Origin: Nocardiopsis sp. CC223A
GTDB lineage: Bacteria > Actinomycetota > Actinomycetes > Streptosporangiales > Streptosporangiaceae
Direction of reading: 5' to 3'
DNA length: 64,000 nucleotides
NCBI RefSeq assembly: GCF_030766825.1
Contig: NZ_JASFDV010000026.1
Location: forward strand, 1 to 64,000
Below, one piece after another: positions 60,581 through 63,844 of the stretch. The notes under the pieces are model-generated. The model worked only from the letters and a program-made list of their open reading frames with translations. It searched no databases and was not told the DNA's origin. Position numbers and translations under genes: made by a program. Position 1 is the first letter of the stretch. Each line of letters starts with the position of its first letter.

Positions 60581-61417
60581 TCAGGCGTCGCGGCGGGCGA
60601 GCACCAGTGCGCCCACCGCCGACGCCGCCGCCGACCAGCACAGGATTACCACGCCCGCGGAGAACGGGCCGATGCCCACCGGCCCCAGCGCCAGGTCGGT
60701 GTCCATGAAGGCCGCGCCCGCCACGAACAGCGTCCGCTCGCTCCAGAACACCGACGTGTCGCCGCCCATCATCAGCAGCATCACCGGCAGCCCCACGACC
60801 AGAAGGAACAGCGCGGTCAGCGCCCCGGCCACCGACCGCAGCGCCGCACCCGCCCCCAGCGCCGTCACCGCGACCAGCGCGAGGTAGGCGCCCTGGCGCA
60901 GCACGGACACGACCGCCGCGCCCGCCTCCAGCGTTCCGTACCCCGCCAGGTAGGGGTGCGACATCACCGCGAAGGCCAGCACCGTCCCGGCCGACGCGGC
61001 CACCGCCCCCAGCACGAACGCGAACCCCGCCGTCACGACGGCCTTGGCCGCCAGCAGCCGCCACCGCACCGGGACCGCCTGCAACGAGGCGCGCACCGCC
61101 CCGGAGGAGTACTCGGTGGTGACGACCGGCAGCACCAGGCCGATCACCACGAACTGCACCACCCACAAGGTGGCGTAGACCGCCATCTCCGCAGCGGGCA
61201 CCTGCGCCACCGGCACCGTCCCGTTCTGGGCGTTGGAGACGGTGGAGACGGCCACCGACGGCGCCACCGCGCACATCAGCGCCAACGCCGCCGCGGCACC
61301 CCACCAGGTGGTGCGCACCGACCGCAGCCGCACCCACTCGGCGGACACGGCCGCGGCCAGGTCCGACAGCGCACGGCGCGGCCCGGCCGGGCGTTCGACG
61401 ACGGGGGCGGGGGTCAT
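60581..61417 (-). CDS. ABC-2 type transporter permease
   Basis: 278 residues and about six helices (WWGAAAALALMCAVAPSVAV, VVQFVVIGLVLPVVTTEYSS, the late VAGALTALFLLVVGLPVMLL). The element VTTEYSSGAVRASL is the common motif of ABC-2 permeases next to bacitracin/lantibiotic-type exporters. It overlaps the ATPase stop by four bases (ATGA). Together they form a two-component exporter of unknown substrate, in one leftward unit with a histidine kinase and response regulator. A role in resistance or export is likely. Confidence 0.9.
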   Translation of the reverse strand: MTPAPVVERPAGPRRALSDLAAAVSAEWVRLRSVRTTWWGAAAALALMCAVAPSVAVSTVSNAQNGTVPVAQVPAAEMAVYATLWVVQFVVIGLVLPVVTTEYSSGAVRASLQAVPVRWRLLAAKAVVTAGFAFVLGAVAASAGTVLAFAVMSHPYLAGYGTLEAGAAVVSVLRQGAYLALVAVTALGAGAALRSVAGALTALFLLVVGLPVMLLMMGGDTSVFWSERTLFVAGAAFMDTDLALGPVGIGPFSAGVVILCWSAAASAVGALVLARRDA

Positions 61418-62331
61418 GGGCGTTCTCCGTCCCGGGCGGTGTACTGCACGGCGTTCTCGGTCAGTTCGCGGTAGGCCTGCTCCAGGGAGGCGTCGCGGGT
61501 GCGCAGCTCGTGCACCACCACCCCGGCCCGGTGGGCCAGCTCCCCCACCCGCTCCGTCCCCAGGCCGGTGACCACCAGTTCGGTGGGTCCGGCCCGCTCC
61601 ACCTCGGCGCCCTCGGCCGCCAGCGCGGTGACCAGGTCCTCGGGGTGGGGGCTGCGCACCACCACGGCCGTCCAGGCGCTGTGCGCCAGCACCTCGGCCA
61701 GCGGCGCGTCGGCGATGAGCCGCCCCCGCCCGATCACCACCAGGTGGTCGGCGGTCAGCTGCATCTCGGCCATCAGGTGGCTGGAGACGAACACGGTGCG
61801 CCCCTGCCCGGCCAGCTCCCGCATCAGCTCCCGGATCCACCGCACCCCGTCGGGGTCCAGCCCGTTGACGGGCTCGTCGAACAACAGCACACCGGGGTCG
61901 CCCAGCAGCGCCGCGGCGATGCCCAGCCGCTGGCTCATGCCCAGCGAGAACGTGCCCGCCCGGCGGCGGGCCGCCCCCTCCAGCCCCACCCGCTCCAGCA
62001 CGTCGTCCACCCGCCGGTCGGGGATGCGGTGGGTGCGGGCCAGCGCCAGCAGGTGGGCGCGGCCGCTGCGGCCCGGGTGCACGGCGCGGGCGTCCAGCAC
62101 CGCGCCCACGTGGTGCAGCGGCCGGTCCAGCTCCCGGTAGGGGCGCCCGCCCACCAGCGCCCGCCCCGAGGTGGGGTGGTCCAATCCCAGCACCATGCGC
62201 ATCGTGGTGCTCTTGCCCGCACCGTTGGGCCCCAGGAACCCGGTGACCCGCCCGGGGCGCACCTCCAGGTCCAGGGAGTCCACGGCGAGCACGTCGCCGT
62301 AGCGTTTGGTCAGTCCCCGCAGGGTGATCAT
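61414..62331 (-). CDS. ABC transporter ATPase (DrrA/BcrA-like)
   Basis: 305 residues. Walker A GPNGAGKST, Q-loop VGAVLDARAVHPGRS, signature FSLGMSQRLGIAAALLG, Walker B LLFDEPVNGLDPDG and H-loop FVSSHLMAEM are complete. The C-terminal extension (ERAGPTELVVTGLGTERVGE, LRTRDASLEQAYRELTENAV) is that of antibiotic-exporter ATPases. GGGAGGG precedes ATG 62331. It overlaps the permease gene by four bases. Divergent from the short ThrRS locus, whose leader begins 134 bp away. Confidence 0.94.
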   Translation of the reverse strand: MITLRGLTKRYGDVLAVDSLDLEVRPGRVTGFLGPNGAGKSTTMRMVLGLDHPTSGRALVGGRPYRELDRPLHHVGAVLDARAVHPGRSGRAHLLALARTHRIPDRRVDDVLERVGLEGAARRRAGTFSLGMSQRLGIAAALLGDPGVLLFDEPVNGLDPDGVRWIRELMRELAGQGRTVFVSSHLMAEMQLTADHLVVIGRGRLIADAPLAEVLAHSAWTAVVVRSPHPEDLVTALAAEGAEVERAGPTELVVTGLGTERVGELAHRAGVVVHELRTRDASLEQAYRELTENAVQYTARDGERP

Positions 62332-62453
62332 GGCCCTCCCGCCATCGCTTCTCGACGGTGTCCATGCTGGTCGCCGCACCCCGGCCCGGACCATGGTGCC
62401 GCCCACCGACGAGGGGTGCGGTTTTCCGCAGGACACCGCCGGGGGTCCTCTGG

Positions 62454-62519
62454 TACGGTCACGGCATGATGCAGCGCGCCCTGAGCACGACGACGCCGGA
62501 GATGCCACCGGCGCGCTGA
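62454..62519 (+). CDS. Threonine-rich leader peptide of attenuator
   Basis: Coding part 62466-62519: 17 codons giving MMQRALSTTTPEMPPAR. Three consecutive ACG threonine codons (62487-62495) lie in the middle. The -10-like TACGGT (62454-62459) is six bases before the first ATG, so the message begins with the peptide. Inverted arms CAGCGCGCC (62472-62480) and GGCGCGCTG (62510-62518) bracket the Thr codons. The following hairpin and ThrRS gene make a classical ribosome-mediated attenuation arrangement likely. Confidence 0.75.
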   Translation, partial: YGHGMMQRALSTTTPEMPPAR

Positions 62520-62534
62520 CTCCTGCACTCAGCC

Positions 62535-62563
62535 AAGCCCCGGGGCGCACCGCCCCGGGGCTT
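62535..62563 (+). terminator. Attenuator hairpin before the ThrRS-like gene
   Basis: AAGCCCCGGGGCG (62535-62547), loop CAC, CGCCCCGGGGCTT (62551-62563): a perfect 13-bp stem, 15 nt after the leader stop and 43 nt before the synthetase start. There is no U-run, as is usual in actinomycetes. It is well placed as the terminator of a threonine-starvation switch. Confidence 0.8.
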
Positions 62564-62605
62564 CGCGCATCCGGCGGTCCGCCCCCGCACCCTCGGGAGG
62601 AACCC

Positions 62606-63844
62606 GTGACCGCCGTCGACCACCGCCGCCTGGGCCGCGACCTGGACCTGTTCGACACCGACCCGCTCATCGGCGCCGGGCTGCCGTTCTGGCTGCCCGA
62701 CGGCGCCACCGTCCGCCACACCCTGGAGGAGTACGTGCGCGGCCTGGAACGCGAGGCCGGGTACGTGCACGTGTACTCCCCCGCCCTGGGCAAACGCGCC
62801 CTGTACGAGAGGTCCGGGCACTGGTCGCACTACCGCGACGGCATGTTCGGCCCCCTGGACGACGGCGGCGACCAACTGGTGCTGCGCCCGAGCCTGTGCC
62901 CGCACCACGCCCTCCTCTACCGGTCCCGCGCCCGCAGCCACCGGGAGCTGCCGCTGCGCGTCGCCGAACTCGGCGACATGTACCGCCACGAGCCCTCCGG
63001 GTCGCTGGGCGGCCTCACCCGGGTGCGGGCCATCCGCCTCAACGACGCCCACGTCTTCTGCACCCCCGACCAGGTGGTGGACGAGACCGCGGCCGCCCTG
63101 GACCTCATCGGCCGCGCCCACCGGGCCCTGGGCATCACCCCGGTCCGGTACCGGCTGTCCCTGCCCGGCCCGGGCGATCAGGACCGGCGCGGCAAGTACG
63201 CGGGCGAGCCCGCCGTGTGGGAACGCGCCACCGGCCTGCTGGTGTCCGCCCTGGAGCAGGCCGGCCTGGACTGGGAGGAGGGGCCCGGCGAGGCCGCGTT
63301 CTACGGTCCCAAAATCGATGTGCAGATCGCCGACCCGGCCGGACGCGAGTCCACCCTGTCCACCGTCCAGGTCGACCTGCACCAGCCCGAACGCTTCGAC
63401 CTGCACTACACCGGCCCCGACGGGGCCCGCCACCGGCCCGTCATGGTGCACCGCAGCGTCATCGGCAGCATCGAACGGGTGGTCGCCCACCTGATCGAGG
63501 TGCACCGGGGGGCGTTCCCGGCCTGGCTGGCCCCGCTCCAACTGGTCGCCCTGCCGGTGTCCCCCGGCCAGGAGGAGGCCGCCGCCTCCCTGGCCGACCG
63601 CGCCAGGCGGCGCGGACTGCGCGCCGACACCGCCGCCGCGGACCACGGCGCCCTGGGCGCCCGCATCCGCGAGCACCGCCTGGTGCCCTACCAGGCGGTC
63701 ATCGGCGCCCGCGAGGCCGCCGAGAACACCGTGTCGGTGCGCCTGCGCGACGGCCGCCGCCTGCCCGCCCTGCCGGTGGAGGAGTTCCTGGACCGGGCCG
63801 CCGCCCTGGCGGCCGCCCGCACCACCGGCCTCTGGGACGCGTGA
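62606..63844 (+). CDS. thrS: Short threonyl-tRNA synthetase lacking TGS and editing domains
   Basis: 412 residues versus about 640-690 for housekeeping ThrRS. It starts directly at the catalytic core. Zinc ligands Cys (LRPSLCPHHALL), His (NDAHVFC) and His (VMVHRSVIGS) are all kept. Motif 2 is MYRHEPSGSLGGLTRVRAIR and motif 3 VIGSIERVV. The C-terminal anticodon-binding domain ends near ALPVEEFLDRAAALA. The N1/N2 domains, including the Ser-editing site, are absent. Such paralogs could act as inducible, editing-free or inhibitor-resistant enzymes. GTG 62606 follows GGAGG. Located beside an exporter and two-component system, so a self-resistance or antibiotic-response role is plausible. The Thr-codon leader supports regulation by charged tRNA-Thr. 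Confidence 0.9.
   Translation: MTAVDHRRLGRDLDLFDTDPLIGAGLPFWLPDGATVRHTLEEYVRGLEREAGYVHVYSPALGKRALYERSGHWSHYRDGMFGPLDDGGDQLVLRPSLCPHHALLYRSRARSHRELPLRVAELGDMYRHEPSGSLGGLTRVRAIRLNDAHVFCTPDQVVDETAAALDLIGRAHRALGITPVRYRLSLPGPGDQDRRGKYAGEPAVWERATGLLVSALEQAGLDWEEGPGEAAFYGPKIDVQIADPAGRESTLSTVQVDLHQPERFDLHYTGPDGARHRPVMVHRSVIGSIERVVAHLIEVHRGAFPAWLAPLQLVALPVSPGQEEAAASLADRARRRGLRADTAAADHGALGARIREHRLVPYQAVIGAREAAENTVSVRLRDGRRLPALPVEEFLDRAAALAAARTTGLWDA

Follow-up and report, generated by a model that had tools for sequence, protein, structure and literature searches.

A classical ribosome-mediated transcriptional attenuator probably governs thrS2, an auxiliary threonyl-tRNA synthetase (ThrRS2) gene of Nocardiopsis sp. 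CC223A, and we put the probability of this reading at roughly 0.87. The locus lies near the end of the window, which is the whole 64,000-nucleotide stretch of DNA that was analysed. Read from upstream to downstream, an A/T box, −35 and −10 elements, a leaderless ORF, a 13-bp hairpin, a ribosome-binding site and ThrRS2 follow one another (Table 1), and promoter, leader and gene together make one testable unit. The first-pass annotation had described a leaderless 17-codon ORF with three ACG codons, a perfect 13-bp hairpin and a 412-residue ThrRS, all of which were confirmed by direct reading. The leader begins with ATG at 62466, has a second in-frame ATG at 62469 and is closed by TGA at 62517–62519. 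Region 1 overlaps its last Thr codon, and region 2 shares letters with the 3' arm of the 1:2 hairpin. The perfect 13-bp stem of the putative terminator encloses a loop at 62548–62550, and a U run directly 3' of this hairpin is absent in the window. A Shine–Dalgarno-like GGGAGGA (62595–62601) stands before the GTG start codon at 62606. On the minus strand of the window, apparent ABC-transporter genes (60581–62330; ATPase and permease, named by eye) diverge from the thrS2 promoter.

Table 1. Features of the thrS2 locus, given in window positions.
Feature	Position	Strand	Basis or remark
AT-rich box GTTTTC	62421..62426	+	site expected of a WblC/WhiB7 box; 3 nt separate it from the −35
−35-like AGGACA	62430..62435	+	sequence; 18 bp 5' of the −10; consensus of relatives weak
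−10 element TACGGT	62454..62459	+	TANNNT placement kept in relatives
Leaderless leader ORF, MMQRALSTTTPEMPPAR then stop	62466..62519	+	17 codons; frame kept in relatives
Regulatory codons ACG-ACG-ACG (Thr-Thr-Thr)	62487..62495	+	codon conservation in relatives
Region 1, CGCCGG, 5' arm of 1:2 hairpin	62494..62499	+	pairs with 62508–62513
Region 2, GCC-A-CCGG, putative antiterminator 5' arm	62504..62511	+	fold of 62498–62549; folds of relatives
Region 3, putative terminator 5' arm	62535..62547	+	covariation, folds; 62540–62546 (CCGGGGC) pairs with region 2 too
Region 4, putative terminator 3' arm	62551..62563	+	two-sided changes in relatives
thrS2 (second ThrRS, 412 aa)	62606..63844	+	GTG 62606, TGA 63842–63844; Pfam, TIGR00418

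In the proposed switch, transcription would begin at or next to the first base of the leader, behind a WblC/WhiB7-type promoter, and a ribosome would initiate on the leaderless ORF, whose conserved frame suggests that it is translated. When the ACG-reading Thr-tRNA is charged, the ribosome would reach the stop codon and cover region 2, which would let the 3:4 terminator form and end transcription before thrS2. When this tRNA is uncharged, the ribosome would stall on the ACG run and cover region 1, leaving region 2 free to pair with the loop-side half of the terminator 5' arm (2:3). RNA polymerase would then continue into thrS2, which would be translated from its own ribosome-binding site after the readthrough. 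With no ribosome on the leader, both the 1:2 and the 3:4 hairpins would form and thrS2 would be off. Coverage was estimated from the known size of the ribosome footprint: a ribosome positioned at the first Thr codons masks region 1 and leaves region 2 exposed, and a ribosome at the stop codon masks region 2. A transcription start downstream of the hairpin was not seen, the start given for Streptomyces lividans thrL from RNA-seq being leaderless in the available text of PMC8079986.

The leader was compared among relatives using a sample of 120 genomes of the family, to which loci of the order, the class and named genomes were added, giving 181 examined loci. A close ThrRS2 relative showed a patchy presence (44 of the 120 family genomes), and a Thr leader precedes it in all 44 (L005–L048). 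One of these leaders, that of L047, ends early, reading TTTPE and then TAG before region 2, which alters the site where the ribosome would terminate. Two loci, L049 (a full-length ThrRS with 42% identity) and L180 (at a contig end), were dropped to leave 179, and a −10-linked leader with at least two consecutive Thr codons was found in 177 of these upstream stretches; on the other strand of the same stretches, the number was 0 of 179. The two loci without a two-Thr run are L169, which has Thr-Arg-Thr, and L120, which has a hairpin but no leader. Here, counts of 179 and 180 denote loci, among which the same strain is possibly repeated, and counts of 170, 171 and 175 denote distinct sequences; the core pattern is missing in L120, L165, L169, L049 and L180, which were left out of the frame, fold and promoter counts.

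The typical ThrRS2 leader peptide is M(K/Q)RA..TTTPExVPAR, and exactly three Thr codons stand before Pro in 169 of 170 distinct leaders, with two in the remaining one (L165). The segment from the start codon to the Thr run ranges from 15 to 36 nt, yet 170 of 171 distinct sequences preserve the reading frame across it; TANNNT ends 6 or 7 nt 5' of the leader start in the same proportion (170/171), with 4–9 nt permitted. This is the pattern that the first-pass annotation had anticipated: the Thr triplet is conserved upstream of orthologous genes while the preceding codons drift in both sequence and length, and the hairpin covaries. Partial losses of the Thr run, which are counted against the attenuator, occur in L169, in L165, in one leader of a full-length thrS (G048) and in the published S. 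lividans peptide.

A covariance model was built on 39 representatives and used to search 296 genomes of the class, which gave 46 matches below 1e-10. Forty-five of them are located directly 5' of ThrRS2 and one (G416) at a contig end; as some of the matched loci were in the model, this result speaks of specificity rather than discovery. ThrRS2 is present in 48 genomes of the class, and the three beyond those 45 are two contig-edge cases (G343 and G467) and one scoring 2.5e-6 (G386). The contig-end match (L233, G416:C18) consists of a perfect leader followed by a start codon, after which the first codons look unlike ThrRS2 by eye; this reading frame is possibly an insertion element. Among the weaker matches listed, the eight that were inspected (G411 twice, G456, G375, G403, G129, G427 and G258) were rejected as terminator-like hairpins without a Thr leader, again by eye. 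The genome of the window itself gave one strong match (3.9e-18), with the next at 0.015, and no second strong match was found elsewhere in it by this search. A pattern search across the phylum matched 33 of 396 genomes, in which most of the matched letters looked unlike the leader; the one ThrRS2-type case that was read outside the class, G608, has both the leader and ThrRS2.

The 110-nt leader folds with a z-score of −4.02, and none of 200 shuffles was equally stable (0/200). Covariation was examined in a structure alignment of 39 of the 40 representatives, from which L109 was left out. Two-sided changes were detected in 10 of the 15 terminator pairs, and the whole structure contains 24 two-sided cells versus a shuffled mean of 8.0. 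Such cells number 22 in the outer eight pairs of the terminator and 2 in the inner seven, which are shared with region 2; few changes are expected of a doubly constrained arm, and loop-side conservation could also have other causes. The 1:2 stem is paired in 233 of 234 cells and is almost invariant, so that covariation neither supports nor contradicts this stem. The bracketing arms form an outer leader stem with 93.1% of its cells paired and two two-sided cells.

An antiterminator pairing with the terminator arm had been called not obvious in the first-pass annotation; a candidate was found between region 2 and the loop-side half of the terminator 5' arm. It forms in 167 of the 170 folds of relatives, computed for the moment in transcription when region 2 is unoccupied and synthesis of the terminator 5' arm has just finished, versus 46–64 of 170 when the upstream part was shuffled (ten rounds). 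In relatives, region 2 is usually GUCCCGG and is paired with CCGGGGC of the terminator 5' arm, and in the window GCC-A-CCGG is paired with the same CCGGGGC through seven pairs and one bulged A. In the window this pairing is also what the free stretch folds into, although the overall stability of the fold does not exceed that of shuffles (z −0.35 and −1.50). Antiterminator cells are paired at 95.9%, and at most at 71.7% when the pairing is slid; 63 of 500 shuffles attain the 95.9%, because the columns hardly vary. Covariation is thin at this site, with one two-sided cell in 39 sequences, which 35 of 500 shuffles attain. Direct compensatory change is sparse, examples being CUCCGG with CCGGAG at L048 and a U-A pair in G067 where most relatives show U-G. 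Stability favours the terminator (mean −29.5 kcal/mol) over the antiterminator stage (mean −19.6 kcal/mol) in 158 of 170 sequences, so that antitermination would have to be kinetic. With the Thr run conserved, the terminator arms covarying and an antiterminator at hand, the attenuation proposed in the first pass is upheld as far as sequence can tell. A T-box riboswitch or other known RNA was ruled out for the leader, since Rfam gave no match at the gathering score over the whole window.

The same kind of attenuator precedes the primary thrS in some genera where ThrRS2 was not found. One match of the covariance model (G067, 4.3e-7) precedes a full-length primary thrS, and ten more such leaders were obtained from a pattern search and from 55 upstream stretches of genomes without a ThrRS2 found; in nine of these, three or four Thr stand in a row, and the leader of G048 is degenerate. 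Attenuator-type leaders are present on the primary thrS of 11 of 56 genomes including G067, which belong to 7 genera. Their peptide is approximately MAA..ETTTPG..RR..R, and the middle Thr codon is ACC in 3 of the 11, meaning that the residue is kept and the codon changed. Among the 45 genomes without a primary leader, G041 and G059 proved to have a ThrRS2 gene after all, preceded by its own leader but cut short or apparently broken. The G059 locus (L330, G059:C48) possesses an intact ThrRS2-type leader and terminator, and only ThrRS2 residues 5–45 match in 1.8 kb, so that the gene may be broken or misassembled. Two full-length ThrRS-like genes each, without a close ThrRS2, were observed in G011 and G013. 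The primary thrS of genomes that possess ThrRS2 showed a three-Thr leader in 0 of 20 loci when both strands were scanned whole, and no leader of two or more Thr in the stretch before the frame, this stretch being short for L186, L188 and L203. The genome of the window has its full-length ThrRS elsewhere (G000:C9:27983–29722), and no Thr leader was found in the 1,500 nt upstream of it (L001).

A more specific reading is favoured with moderate confidence: the leader would be an isoacceptor-specific ACG sensor with a starvation-proof output, the ThrRS2 and full-length primary genes under it would have been purged of ACG and given ACC instead, one switch would serve two kinds of thrS, and an antibiotic-stress promoter would gate ThrRS2, making an AND-like, two-input device that restores Thr-tRNA in translation stress. 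When leaders were searched free of codon constraint, both codons before Pro proved to be ACG in every one of 170 distinct ThrRS2 leaders (170/170 each); the Thr codon preceding those two was ACG in 165 of 169 and ACC in 4. The ThrRS2 genes show the reverse usage, with 2.3% ACG and 95.7% ACC among 1684 Thr codons (175 distinct sequences), and the window thrS2 has 16 Thr codons, all of them ACC (ACG 0/16). Comparison within the same genomes (20 genomes) gave ACG 104/558 in the primary gene versus 5/221 in ThrRS2, the ACG share being higher for the primary gene in 19 of the 20 genomes (Wilcoxon p 1.9e-5), and the N-terminal part of the primary thrS has ACG 5/127 with the attenuator versus 109/569 without it (Fisher p 4.3e-6 for 11 vs 45 genes; p 7.9e-5 by genus, 7 vs 35), these p values being guides only because the genera are not fully independent.

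The contrast could instead be a by-product, in which the leader ACG is fixed by RNA pairing and the ACC of the gene by expression optimisation or genome background. The third ACG does reach into the 1:2 stem with its final base, yet the second ACG is outside it and is equally kept in 170 of 170. A background effect might be seen in rpoB of two attenuated genomes, which has little ACG (5/63 in G067 and 10/66 in G066), and in TCG, which is reduced in ThrRS2 (26.0 vs 37.5% in the primary gene) while their other NNG shares are close. However, the NNG codons of Ser, Pro, Ala, Val, Arg and Leu are alike in attenuated and non-attenuated primaries (p 0.26–0.95) and Gly GGG differs weakly (p 0.017), as against 4.3e-6 for ACG. 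The ACG share of rpoB is likewise 24.8, 27.5 and 24.6% in the attenuated (143/576, 9 genes), non-attenuated (224/814, 13 genes) and ThrRS2 genomes (65/264, 4 genes). The set comprised 26 rpoB genes, from which G117 (no frame), G094 and G110 (fragments), G081 (no match) and the second copies in G012, G051, G057 and G107 were left out. We consider the by-product explanation unlikely.

Returning to the ACG sensor, the genome of the window has tRNA-Thr anticodons CGU, UGU and GGU, as found by a scan covering 30 loci and 20 stretches of 66 matches with a few long class-II candidates omitted. The limiting isoacceptor would presumably be one that reads ACG; since the UGU tRNA-Thr could read this codon too, CGU-specific sensing does not follow. 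As thrS2 uses almost only ACC, its translation could continue while ACG codons are starved.

When 170 distinct promoters were aligned on the −10, a block of A/T near −32 to −28 became visible, separated by 3 nt from a weak −35 that resembles TTG and lies 18 bp before the −10. In 130 of 170 distinct ThrRS2 promoters, three successive A/T begin between −34 and −28 relative to the −10, versus 12, 7, 5, 4 and 2 of 170 for five intervals of the same width elsewhere. Our criterion for a WblC/WhiB7 promoter was GAAAWY 3 nt before the −35, a 16–19 bp spacer and TANNNT. The available text of PMC7157823 places GAAAWY 3 nt 5' of the −35 in WblC-activated promoters and lists thrS2 among the WblC-activated genes of S. 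coelicolor. The A/T block of the relatives is compatible with this box in place and consensus. The run in the window box is T and not A (GTTTTC vs GAAAWY), and WblC dependence of this promoter in its own organism is predicted by analogy. The A/T box was found in 4 of 10 attenuated primary thrS promoters and is thus separable from the attenuator.

Some drugs stall ribosomes when Thr lies near the peptidyl end, and the leader could accordingly be imagined to sense translation inhibitors through the nascent peptide or a drug-bound ribosome instead of uncharged tRNA-Thr, the WblC-type promoter being part of the same drug response. The frequent box and the WblC activation of thrS2 in S. coelicolor would fit such a sensor. 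However, the product of the downstream gene makes Thr-tRNA, and the codon itself is kept in leaders and avoided in the controlled genes, which a peptide or drug-context sensor would not predict; the box is also seen in only 4 of the 10 attenuated primary promoters. Drug sensing by the leader is hence regarded as very improbable.

Pfam identified only tRNA-synt_2b (85–300) and HGTP_anticodon (313–397) in ThrRS2, TGS and editing domains being undetected at E 0.001, and TIGR00418 (thrS) scored 421.1 bits against a cut-off of 383.65. The earlier description of an editing-free, domain-poor second ThrRS is right at the domain level, a full-length ThrRS being encoded elsewhere in the genome; the lack of an editing domain may come at the cost of mischarging with serine. 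Among named relatives, the nearest that was found is Nocardiopsis flavescens, whose protein is 85% identical. The closest solved structure by sequence is 1nyq (E 1.5e-109; next 4.4e-82), which we take to be from Staphylococcus aureus. The zinc ligands, presumably Cys334, His385 and His511 in E. coli ThrRS numbering, and Arg363 are kept in 180 of 180 ThrRS2 loci. By these residues the enzyme appears catalytically competent, and charging of tRNA-Thr is predicted.

The first pass had also raised a drug-resistant backup. Such an enzyme might stand in for the main ThrRS in the presence of its natural inhibitors, borrelidin for example, by analogy with the indolmycin-resistant auxiliary tryptophanyl-tRNA synthetase of Streptomyces, and the same attenuator would control it. 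Such regulation would activate thrS2 when the main ThrRS is inhibited, and the patchy presence of ThrRS2 in the family would suit this role, as would position 489 near the inhibitor pocket, which is Gln in 177 of 180 loci, and 50 positions (five of them gaps) that differ consistently from 20 primary enzymes. However, Gly463, whose replacement in E. coli ThrRS gives obafluorin and borrelidin resistance according to the available text of PMC11252418, is kept together with Tyr462 in 180 of 180 ThrRS2 loci. The same text reports that L489M gave no obafluorin resistance, and Gln489 also occurs in 6 of the 20 primary enzymes; the WblC link moreover indicates general translation stress instead. An ObaO-type resistant ThrRS acting through the known residue was hence ruled out, and the resistant backup is possible but doubtful. 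A general supply of Thr-tRNA under translation stress is likelier for ThrRS2 than specific drug resistance. Ala was observed at the Gly463 place in 4 of 20 primary ThrRSs of ThrRS2 genomes (L187, L189, L192 and L197), and the primary ThrRS of G067 (L224) reads YYAPK in this region as well; the Gly463-to-Ala change lowers obafluorin and borrelidin sensitivity of the E. coli enzyme, as stated in the available text of PMC11252418.

The attenuator, with its ACG run and its stress-type promoter, suggests how actinomycetes may sustain Thr-tRNA supply during translation stress. Selective-charging theory predicts which codons starvation sensors should use, and the present leaders and genes supply a naturally occurring set that spans many genera and keeps the codons of sensor and output apart. 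Because the switch is on the primary gene in some genera and absent in others, this codon prediction is open to simple recoding. In the literature, of which the subscription part was covered partially, neither the antiterminator nor the switch on the primary thrS nor the codon segregation was found to be reported, and the WblC/WhiB7-type box seen on thrS2-leader promoters of 130 of 170 relatives was not found in print.

Several known systems resemble this attenuator. Streptomyces has an auxiliary indolmycin-resistant tryptophanyl-tRNA synthetase (TrpRS), and the auxiliary TrpRS of S. coelicolor is reportedly controlled by ribosome-mediated attenuation and drug resistant. That gene, similarly to thrS2, is a second synthetase gene behind a leader peptide of cognate codons; it differs in the amino acid (Trp), the enzyme and the reported resistance, whereas ThrRS2 has no known resistance residue change. 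Classical attenuators on synthetase genes of the same phylum are also carried by trpS and leuS of Streptomyces, as given in the available text of PMC1262725, which in 2005 described no upstream RNA structure conserved among threonine operons. Most similar is the thrL-thrS attenuator of S. lividans TK24, which is in print from RNA-seq with a leaderless start (PMC8079986, Table 4, in the part available). Its leader, MKRVRPFLETTPGFVPAR, is leaderless, has one hairpin without a U-rich stretch and lies 5' of a threonine-tRNA ligase gene, like the leader of the window; it contains two Thr, versus three in the window, and the available part of that paper describes no antiterminator, conservation or codon contrast for it. 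Judging from the likeness of the leaders, SLIV_19410 is probably the orthologue of the window ThrRS2, so that this kind of attenuator was already known. The codon choice of E. coli attenuator leaders was explained by selective charging, these leaders using the most starvation-sensitive codon (PMC1183508, in the part available), and in this the ThrRS2 leaders would resemble them. The E. coli thr leader in the same source uses ACC, whereas the ThrRS2 leaders use ACG and the gene they control avoids it.
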